The translations under genes and the position numbers were made by a program. A stretch of 32,775 nucleotides of DNA from a candidate division FCPU426 bacterium (GTDB lineage Bacteria > Oederibacteriota > Muellerivitia > Muellerivitales > Muellerivitaceae): contig PLZG01000021.1 of the NCBI GenBank assembly GCA_003152075.1, forward strand, positions 45,073-77,847. The letters run 5' to 3'. The stretch's first letter is position 1. Each line of letters starts with the position of its first letter. The notes below the pieces were generated by a model, which was not told the origin of the DNA, searched no databases, and saw only the letters and a program-made list of their open reading frames with translations. This document shows, one piece after another, positions 20,398 through 22,599 of the stretch.

Positions 20398-20428
20398 ATC
20401 ATTTTCTAATCGCTGGGGAGATCCATAA

Positions 20429-20469
20429 AACAAAAAAAGCTAGGGTCATCGACCTTGGCTTTTTTTGTT
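20429..20469 (+). terminator. Rho-independent terminator after tatA
   Basis: A long stem built from an A-run plus GC core (AAAAAAAGCTAGGGTC, 20433-20448) pairs with GACCTTGGCTTTTTTT (20452-20467), with G-T pairs only, around the loop ATC. The T-run serves as the tail. The A/T symmetry means it may also work for minus-strand transcripts of the zinc operon. Confidence 0.85.
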
Positions 20470-20480
20470 TGCGCATTTGA

Positions 20481-20631
20481 TGTCATTGCGAGGAGTGTCC
20501 CGCGAATAGCGGGACGCTTACGACGCGGCAACCCCAGGTTAAATAAGCCTTTTGTCATCCCACCAAACCCACTACCAAACCACCCATGAACTGGGGTTGC
20601 TTCGTCGCTTAATTCGCTCCTCGCAATGACA
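20481..20631. repeat. 150-bp palindromic repeat, copy A
   Basis: The element has a perfect 14-bp terminal inverted repeat (TGTCATTGCGAGGA and its complement) and an inner pair GCAACCCC / GGGGTTGC. A 7-bp stem (20497-20503 with 20509-20515) closes a GAATA loop. The same element occurs at 22450-22599 in the same orientation with high identity. It lies between the tatA terminator and the 3' end of znuB. The TCATTGCGAGG ends are typical of a widespread family of intergenic palindromes. No transposase is present. Confidence 0.88.
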
Positions 20632-20643
20632 CCTCAAAATTAT

Positions 20644-21465
20644 TTAATCCGCATTTTTCATGCGGGTCATGCTGGAAACCAGGATGACGGCCAGCCCAAA
20701 GATGCAAACGATGGTCGCCCCCATGGGCCAGTCTTTCATGTAAGAAAGCACCGACCCCAGCACCGAGACCACCAGGCCGATCCCCCAGGCCCAAGCCAGG
20801 CGGTTTTGCTTATGCCCCAACAAGTTCGCGCAAACGATGGGAACAATCAAAAAGGAAAAAACCGCCAAGACCCCAGCCACACGAACGGCGCTGGTCACTA
20901 CCAGGCCAAAGGCCGTATAAAAGAAGAAATCCCACAGCTTTAAGGACAGGCCCCGGCGCTGGGCCTCCTTCGGATCGGCCGAGCAAAGCATCAGGGTTTT
21001 GTGCTTCTTAAAAAGAAAAGCCCCGACCAAGGCGTAAAAAACCCCCATGATCACGATGTCCTTCCAATTCACCCAACCCAGGGCCTCCCCGCTCAAGGTT
21101 CCCTGGACGTGCTCCGCCCCATGGGGCGAATTGGCCAGCAGAAGCAAGGTGGTGGCCGTCGCGAAGGCGAAGGCGATGCCGATGAAGGCCTCCTGTAATA
21201 CCGAGTGGTCCCTATCCCACAGAAAACTAAAGAGCGCGGCGCCCAAAAGGGTGAAGGCGAAGGACCAATAGTAGGTGCTGGGGTCATGGGACTCGGCGCC
21301 CAGCAAAAAGGCCACGCTTTGGCCCAAGGCGGCGATTTGCGCCAGGGCCAGGTCCACGAAAATGACCCCCCGGGCCAGCACATGCTGGCCCAAGGAGGGG
21401 AGAATCAAAACTAAAAGAAGGCAGGCCAGCATGGGCAATGCCATTACCGCGATGAAATTCGACAT
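20644..21465 (-). CDS. znuB: Zinc/manganese ABC transporter permease (ZnuB-like)
   Basis: The membrane subunit of an ABC-3 family metal importer; 273 aa with about eight hydrophobic segments. Family blocks are GVIFVDLALAQIAALGQSVAFLLG and the SPHGAEHVQGTLSGEAL loop. SAVRVAGVLAVFSFLIVPIVCANLL corresponds to the conserved G-x-L-L-x-x-A-L-L-x-x-P region that contacts the ATPase. It begins 8 bp after the znuA stop, so the two are one transcript. No cognate ATPase (ZnuC) is encoded in the window; either it is elsewhere or a shared ATPase is used. Confidence 0.9.
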   Translation of the reverse strand: MSNFIAVMALPMLACLLLVLILPSLGQHVLARGVIFVDLALAQIAALGQSVAFLLGAESHDPSTYYWSFAFTLLGAALFSFLWDRDHSVLQEAFIGIAFAFATATTLLLLANSPHGAEHVQGTLSGEALGWVNWKDIVIMGVFYALVGAFLFKKHKTLMLCSADPKEAQRRGLSLKLWDFFFYTAFGLVVTSAVRVAGVLAVFSFLIVPIVCANLLGHKQNRLAWAWGIGLVVSVLGSVLSYMKDWPMGATIVCIFGLAVILVSSMTRMKNAD

Positions 21466-21473
21466 GGTTTAAC

Positions 21474-22388
21474 TCACTTTCCCGAGAATGCTTTTACTAA
21501 CGTTGAAACAATGAAGTCGAATTTTGAAAAGACGTCCTTGGCTTTTGGCACCCCCCCGACCTCGGTGGGAATTTCGTAGGCCGTTCCCTCCGCTTTTTTC
21601 GCTAATTGCTGGGCCGCGTCGGCATCATAGTAGGGCTGATAAAGGACCACTTTCACGCCGGCGGCTTTCATGGCCTCGGCGGTTTCGGTCAGGTACCTTG
21701 GGTTTGGCGGAATACCGGGCTTGGGTTCCACCGTCCCGAAAAGTTTTAGTCCGAAACGGGTTGAGAAATAAACAAAATTCTCGTGGTAAACCACGATTGA
21801 AGTTCCTTTATAGGGTTTCAAATCCGCCTCCCAACCCTTGAGGGCCTTTTCCATCTTTTCGTCAAAGGCCTTGGCGTTGGCCGTGTAATCATCCGCATTG
21901 GTTGGGTCCAGTTCACCGAAGACCCGGGCCAAATGGTCCGCCACCACTTCCAGGTTGGCCGGATCCACGTAGTAATGAGGATTTCCTAGTGGATGGATGT
22001 CGCCCTCGGCCCGGCTCACCGTTCCCACGGGCTTCTCGAGCACATTTATTTCCTCGGAGGCGTCGATGAAGCCCTTGGCTCCCGGCTGGATCTTCGGGTT
22101 GCGGCTTCCCGGTATCACCAGGGGTAGCCAGCCCCCGTCCAGTTCTAATCCCACGGAAATAAACACGTCGGCGTTTTGGATGGCCTTCATCAGGCTGGGT
22201 TTGGCCGGCACGAAGTGCGGGTCCTGGTAGCCTTTACATAAGCTGGTGGCCGTCACGTGCTTGCCGCCCACGAATTGGGCCACCGAGGCCAGGTCTTCCA
22301 GCGCGGTCGCCACCTTTAAGTCCGCGAAGGCCGGCAGGGTGGAAAAAGCCAACGCAAATCCCAAAAGTATTTTGACTAACGATTTCAT
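21474..22388 (-). CDS. znuA: Periplasmic zinc-binding protein (ZnuA/AdcA-like)
   Basis: The substrate-binding protein of a metal ABC importer, 304 aa with the start at 22388. That ATG follows AAGGAGG at a good distance and gives the signal peptide MKSLVKILLGFALAFSTLPAFA; a start 45 bases further upstream would put 15 extra residues before the signal peptide and was rejected. Metal-binding histidines are seen in DPHFVPAKPS, GNPHYYVDP (the usual N-P-H-x-W-x-D-P) and YHENFVYFSTRFGL. The usual long His-rich loop is almost absent. The operon context with an outer-membrane barrel and a His/Cys protein supports zinc. Confidence 0.93.
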   Translation of the reverse strand: MKSLVKILLGFALAFSTLPAFADLKVATALEDLASVAQFVGGKHVTATSLCKGYQDPHFVPAKPSLMKAIQNADVFISVGLELDGGWLPLVIPGSRNPKIQPGAKGFIDASEEINVLEKPVGTVSRAEGDIHPLGNPHYYVDPANLEVVADHLARVFGELDPTNADDYTANAKAFDEKMEKALKGWEADLKPYKGTSIVVYHENFVYFSTRFGLKLFGTVEPKPGIPPNPRYLTETAEAMKAAGVKVVLYQPYYDADAAQQLAKKAEGTAYEIPTEVGGVPKAKDVFSKFDFIVSTLVKAFSGK

Positions 22389-22449
22389 AAAATCCTCCTT
22401 GAAGTTTGACCTACTTAAGACGTTTGAAACCATGGTTTAGTATTCCTCA

Positions 22450-22599
22450 TGTCATTGCGAGGAATGGCCGCCGAATAGGCGGCCGTTTATGACGAAGCAA
22501 CCCCTGTTTAAATAAGCCTTTTGCCATCAACCAAACCCACTGCCAAACCACCCATGAACTTGGGTTGCTTCGCTTCAAAATTCGAAGCTCGCAATGACA
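22450..22599. repeat. 150-bp palindromic repeat, copy B
   Basis: This is the second copy of the element at 20481-20631, in the same orientation. The ends TGTCATTGCGAGGA and GCTCGCAATGACA, the central AATAAGCCTTTTG and the CCACCCATGAACT segment are shared. Its 7-bp stem (22466-22472 with 22478-22484) has three base pairs that differ from copy A, all compensated, and the same GAATA loop. It lies between the stop of the outer-membrane gene and the znuA ribosome binding site, so it is transcribed within the zinc operon on the minus strand. Confidence 0.88.

Follow-up and report, generated by a model that had tools for sequence, protein, structure and literature searches.

Two palindromic repeats of about 150 bp lie, in the same orientation, on either side of the znuA-znuB gene pair in the analyzed window, a stretch of 32,775 nucleotides from a candidate division FCPU426 bacterium (contig PLZG01000021.1 of assembly GCA_003152075.1, forward strand). 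Their sequences were found to be as given in a preliminary description of the locus, and the stems closed by a GAATA loop, which differ at three base pairs, are indeed compensated at all three in both copies, referred to here as A and B. Palindromic repeats ending in TCATTGCGAGG occur in many bacterial genomes, and for such repeats it may be asked whether the fold or the sequence is kept, and whether the fold acts as DNA or as RNA. Both questions are directly testable here: a single lineage features more than 100 hairpins, in which the loop is mostly constant and the stem takes 78 different forms, as well as empty sites in relatives.

The two copies, 151 and 150 nt long respectively, are 83% identical over their length and contain no transposase gene (Table 1). 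Their terminal repeats match at 15 of 15 nt in copy A and at 12 of 12 nt in copy B. Both GAATA hairpins have a perfect 7-bp stem, in which three of the seven pairs differ (T-A/G-C, C-G/G-C and G-C/C-G), every one with its partner; just outside the stem of copy A, the G20495-C20521 pair is swapped between G-C and A-T among copies. Both copies fold far more stably than shuffled sequence, z being about -9 for the + strand and about -7 for the - strand. The products of znuA and znuB feature the Pfam domains PF01297 and PF00950. The strong terminator-like hairpin adjoining copy A is probably a bidirectional terminator, and probably predates the insertion of the copy, since similar hairpins are found in the orthologous gap of two relatives (G006 and G005).

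Table 1. Features of the two copies and their surroundings in the window, and of units with GGTAGTGTCTCAGTTTG boundaries elsewhere in the same genome (G000)
Feature	Position	Strand	Remark
Terminator-like hairpin, strong, adjoining copy A (context, outside the element)	20428-20470	.	
Palindromic element, copy A (X half leading)	20481-20631	+	150.8 bits with model R1
Copy A, left terminal inverted repeat TGTCATTGCGAGGAG	20481-20495	+	15/15 complementary to 20617-20631
Copy A, outer pairs	20495-20521	+	G20495-C20521, T20496-A20520
Copy A, X hairpin	20497-20515	+	stem GTCCCGC/GCGGGAC, loop GAATA (20504-20508)
Copy A, central stem	20524-20604	+	arms 20524-20539 and 20589-20604, variable centre between
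Copy A, Y hairpin, short form	20605-20619	+	two inner G-C pairs, loop TTAATTC
Copy A, right terminal inverted repeat	20617-20631	+	
znuB-like ABC-3 permease gene (context)	20644-21465	-	Pfam
znuA (context)	21474-22388	-	Pfam
Palindromic element, copy B (X half leading)	22450-22599	+	162.5 bits with model R1
Copy B, left terminal inverted repeat TGTCATTGCGAG	22450-22461	+	
Copy B, X hairpin	22466-22484	+	stem GGCCGCC/GGCGGCC, loop GAATA (22473-22477)
Copy B, central stem and variable centre	22493-22572	+	arms 22493-22508 and 22557-22572
Copy B, Y hairpin, long form, 4 bp	22573-22587	+	CTTC-AAAATTC-GAAG
Copy B, right terminal inverted repeat CTCGCAATGACA	22588-22599	+	
GGTAGTGTCTCAGTTTG-bounded units, G000	L160 1501-1709; L162 1353-1518; L163 1363-1517; L164 1501-1673; L167 1363-1517		

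A BLAST search with copy A of the genome containing the window (G000, 99.97% complete) returned dozens of separate places, many of them matching at full length (73-83% identity) and others over one half. TGTCATTGCGAG occurs 94 times in this genome, its reversed control never. A covariance model built on 21 copies (R1), whose matches are counted on both strands, gave 105 hits in G000 and between 9 and 104 per genome in seven members of the family, all of which carry further copies. The stem is kept throughout these dozens of copies, and an origin of A and B by local duplication, considered in the preliminary description, is ruled out by the copy number and by their 83% identity.

Exact heads are found, with a patchy distribution and in 1 to 108 copies, in 30 of the 59 genomes searched. 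The genomes are drafts, and the loci compared were selected by similarity to copy A. Beyond the bacterial family, DNA matches mostly cover one element end only. The palindrome centre had been described as foreign to the common palindromes; as a refinement, the AATAAGCC...CCACCCATGAAC centre is found in the family of the window, while genomes of other families mostly match the ends alone; the heterodimer carrying this centre was detected in the family and in one more MAG (L049), which may belong to it. Other families of the phylum also have the TCATTGCGAGG terminal motif and the GACGAAGCAA inner motif. No autonomous copy, with element ends placed around an open reading frame, is evident among the exact sites listed, and no element match was found in phages, plasmids and viral contigs.

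The full element, dispersed, intergenic and about 130-220 bp in size, is an inverted dimer of two TGTCATTGCGAGG halves with unlike inner hairpins: X, with a variable stem and a GAATA loop, and Y, with a GAATTTT-type loop. The single stem first described is thus confirmed as X, and the picture is refined by the second, unlike hairpin in the other half. The X half has the consensus TGTCATTGCGAGGA(A/G)TG-stem-GAATA-stem-CGnTTA(T/C)GACGAAGCAACC; starting from its own terminus, the Y half comprises TGTCATTGCGAG, a 2-4 bp stem with a GAATTTT-type loop, and CGAAGCAACCC, in that order. At their junction a central stem, CGAAGCAACCCCAGTT/AACTTGGGTTGCTTCG (CGAAGCAACCCC/GGGGTTGCTTCG type), encloses a variable spacer. 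The element ends in TGTC, with CGTC variants and a weak extension to TAGC-TGTC; ATTGC is paired across the element or else to a GCAAC farther away, and the 7-bp inner hairpin starts about 16 nt in. XY is the commonest type among the best matches, XX elements and longer copies with additional mid palindromes being also found. Seven loci (L022, L023, L071, L081, L106, L108 and L111) feature a subfamily of about 190-215 bp with inserted palindromes, such as GGTTGTAGTTGGCC...GGCCAACTACAACC in L023. Within the Y half (for example at 20586-20631 of the window) the conserved CCCATGAAC opens a short frame running through that half; the frame, kept because indels are rare there, is probably due to chance.

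Maintenance of the fold, proposed from the two copies, is borne out by covariation in three sets of sequences. The first consists of 113 X hairpins picked by head and loop alone, and therefore free of structure-model bias: 732 of their 791 stem positions pair (93%), against 530 (67%) after shuffling of the 3' arms (at most 560 over 1000 rounds), and 71 stems are fully paired, against 8 after shuffling; the stems are of 78 distinct kinds. In the alignment of 21 copies, changes on both sides of a pair occur in 37 cells, compared with 12 when the 3' letters are shuffled, and the signal is lost when the partner is shifted by 1-3 columns. In 29 copies that took no part in model building, mostly from other genomes, the corresponding figures are 74 and 28, from an alignment fitted to the model and hence biased towards structure. 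Double changes in this last set involve all seven X-stem pairs, four central-stem pairs, one terminal pair and one Y pair, as well as the A-T/G-C pair outside X. In a scan blind to the loop, GAATA is the dominant loop, and the inverted TATTC was never seen. The hairpins stay paired while the letters of their stems keep changing.

Comparison with relatives indicates that the copies are insertions. In four family members (G003, G004, G005 and G006) znuA-znuB keeps its neighbour gene; site B lacks the element in all four, as does site A in all three in which that side is covered. Since these orthologous loci hold the genes but no element, A and B are insertions, and a link of the two copies to znuAB is not supported. 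Their bracketing of the gene pair has no detectable meaning and is probably accidental, a coincidence of two independent insertions; palindromes flanking an operon need not carry regulatory meaning. At a second site (L003), the element is found in G000 and G007 and is absent in five relatives. The right flanks of the G000 and G007 copies resemble each other, so that a single shared insertion is likely; the X stems of these two copies differ by two adjacent double changes. Many copies, covarying stems and element-free orthologous loci together support the structured mobile element that had been envisaged.

Other palindromes occupy some of the same gaps. In two relatives (L154 and L155) an unrelated AATT-rich palindrome of the GAATTATGAATTTTTAATTTTGAATT type lies in the gap before znuA, at site B; the same type is found at about 1400-1500 of L190, another gap which holds a TCATTGCGAGG element in G000. 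G002, one of the five relatives without the element at L003, bears an unrelated palindrome there. The number of sites shared across genera is, by a rough estimate, about that expected by chance for the sample, and hotspots are not claimed.

No direct repeat exceeding shuffled pairing, as expected of a target-site duplication, was found in 126 copies, of which old ones may have lost any; the case for mobility therefore rests on presence and absence at orthologous sites. Among the G002 contigs C110, C111, C112 and C5 (loci L203, L202, L205 and L104), three, with unlike left flanks, share an identical terminal element and a common right flank. These identical copies may reflect recent copying, strain rearrangement or an assembly effect; located at contig ends, they are ambiguous and were rejected as proof of recent movement.

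The reading that we favour, with a probability of roughly 0.6, is that of a non-autonomous REP/MITE-like mobile element, for whose spread the folded DNA is important, A and B being independent insertions. Such an element would be spread by an enzyme supplied in trans, as is a REP dimer or a MITE. The inner hairpins would be kept because the folded single strand, with its terminal pairing and loops, is recognized by the enzyme or by the copying process, a role of the fold that we infer. Insertions would survive chiefly in gaps between genes, and those beside znuAB would represent neither a composite transposon nor a paired regulator.

One candidate for such an enzyme, a RAYT-like transposase with matching ends as suggested in the preliminary description, is not supported. 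The near-complete G000 contains no match to Y1/RAYT transposases, the number of heads shows no significant correlation with the number of Y1 genes over the 59 genomes, and 20 Y1 loci yielded weak partial matches to the element ends, none of them convincing. It may tentatively be imagined that an enzyme other than Y1/RAYT moves the folded single-stranded DNA, reading the GAATA loop and the terminal pairing and ignoring the stem sequence, in which case the four-armed, freely varying fold would be the unit of selection.

Longer inverted repeats, of several unrelated kinds, are found outside the element in 11 of 137 copies. GGTAGTGTCTCAGTTTG, which is one of these kinds, is also found at the boundaries of other palindromes in G000, in units of roughly 150-210 bp with differing interiors (TCATTGCGAGG, TCATTCCGAGG, CCCTCACCCTACCCTCTCCC and CCCCCTTTGAAAAAAGGGG), as though unlike palindromes were carried in a common mobile shell. 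In genus g2 (L062, L068 and L094) and in the MAG L049, copies lie within longer inverted repeats such as AAAGGGACTTATATACTTGAGTTC and adjoin CCCCCTTTGAAAAGGG-type palindromes. Because the outer repeats are of several kinds, and GGTAGTGTCTCAGTTTG is not restricted to the element, the palindromes seem to travel in or beside different mobile shells. No transposase was recognized in three GGTAGTGTCTCAGTTTG loci read by eye, and no parent insertion sequence with the element ends was seen near the Y1 loci or the GGTAGTGTCTCAGTTTG sites.

The fold might alternatively act in RNA, transcribed copies in operon gaps forming hairpins that set mRNA processing or stability, as RNase III/E sites or by protection of 3' ends, with selection on the RNA keeping the stems paired. 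The genomic localization is, at first sight, in agreement. By simple, codon-scored, approximate gene calls, 120 copies have an identified gene on each side, and not one of them is located within a gene; 98 separate genes of the same direction, 14 divergent and 8 convergent ones, and the median distances are 18 nt from the stop codon and 27 nt to the start codon that follows. With about 80% of copies placed in this way, most are probably transcribed. The same-direction share, however, equals that of neighbouring element-free gaps (p = 0.23), so that the position looks like tolerated insertion rather than targeted placement; both orientations occur (20 vs 13), and relatives with an identical gene order have empty sites. 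Selection on a transcript would favour G-T mismatches in sense copies and A-C mismatches in antisense ones, but the GT/AC ratio is independent of the direction of host transcription (11:5 vs 12:6). X stems of sense copies do contain fewer mismatches (0.31 per stem vs 0.63, permutation p = 0.03, one-sided), a weak hint of an RNA role on which we do not rely. No Rfam model matches in the window, and a terminator role was rejected, terminator-like sites in the scan never falling on elements. On the whole we consider an RNA function unlikely; the direction-independent mismatch ratio and the background orientation of neighbouring genes make us lean, weakly, to a fold acting as DNA.

Paired stems could also arise by mutation, both arms being rewritten by template switching within the hairpin (quasi-palindrome correction) or by conversion between copies, with no selection on the fold. 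It is known that template switching can both generate hairpins and mend them, with several compensated changes (PMC8794818), and one comparison speaks for it: at what is likely a shared site, the X stems of L003 and L050 differ by two adjacent double changes, being of the CCCGC/GCGGG and CCGCC/GGCGG types. Yet the closest copies also differ by changes to one side of a pair (for example CG to TG, or TG to CG); template switching alone does not explain why GAATA is conserved and never appears as TATTC, and covariation extends to the central stem, the Y hairpin and the outer A-T/G-C pair. A purely mutational origin appears rather improbable, though template switching is still a serious alternative for the matching of the stems. 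That A and B mobilise or jointly regulate znuA-znuB as one composite unit, as their equal orientation and their placement at either end of the pair might suggest, is largely refuted by the syntenic, element-free znuA-znuB of the four relatives, which excludes a composite transposon, and by the fact that they are only 83% identical and two among dozens.

The non-autonomous mobile element which we favour can be compared with several known systems. A search of the open-access literature by sequence and by encoded peptide returned nothing relevant, and no paper describing TCATTGCGAGG-ended palindromes. The widespread palindromes with these ends in other bacteria share the terminal motif and the GACGAAGCAA inner motif with the element, but differ from it in the X/Y heterodimer with the AATAAGCC...CCACCCATGAAC centre, found in the family and in L049. 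Rickettsia palindromic elements are inserted in frame within protein genes, whereas no copy of the element was found within a called gene.

The closest described class is that of the CGTC-tagged REPs, which include the Rickettsia RPE-4 and Neisseria dRS3 repeats (Di Nocera et al. 2013, PMC3733652). Common features are the CGTC/TGTC head, palindromic units located mostly in intergenic regions, no known dedicated transposase, and the formation of dimers and heterodimers with a different stem or loop, here the inverted XY and XX types. A CGTC-tagged unit is, however, a simple hairpin, with an 8-9 bp stem that follows the head and starts with AT, a loop of 4-5 and a tail near CCA (PMC3733652); in the element the head is followed by GCGAGGA, the inner hairpin with its 5-nt GAATA loop, and GACGAAGCAA, with neither such a stem nor the CCA tail. 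GTAG REPs and REPINs, associated with TnpA-REP/RAYT, likewise consist of two inverted palindromic units with a spacer, in many copies, and in the cases studied their structure matters for recognition of single-stranded DNA (PMC3116915, PMC2817692, PMC8266576); the element differs in ending in TGTC/CGTC, with no GTAG head, and in residing in a genome with no Y1. Bacterial MITEs (PMC10969869) are similarly short, non-coding and bounded by terminal inverted repeats, with many intergenic copies and presence/absence at orthologous sites, but for the element no target duplication was found, nor any parent insertion sequence near the Y1 loci or GGTAGTGTCTCAGTTTG sites, and covarying inner hairpins are not a defining feature of MITEs. 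The element would work like CGTC REPs, GTAG REPs and MITEs, and appears to resemble each of them rather than strictly to join any one.
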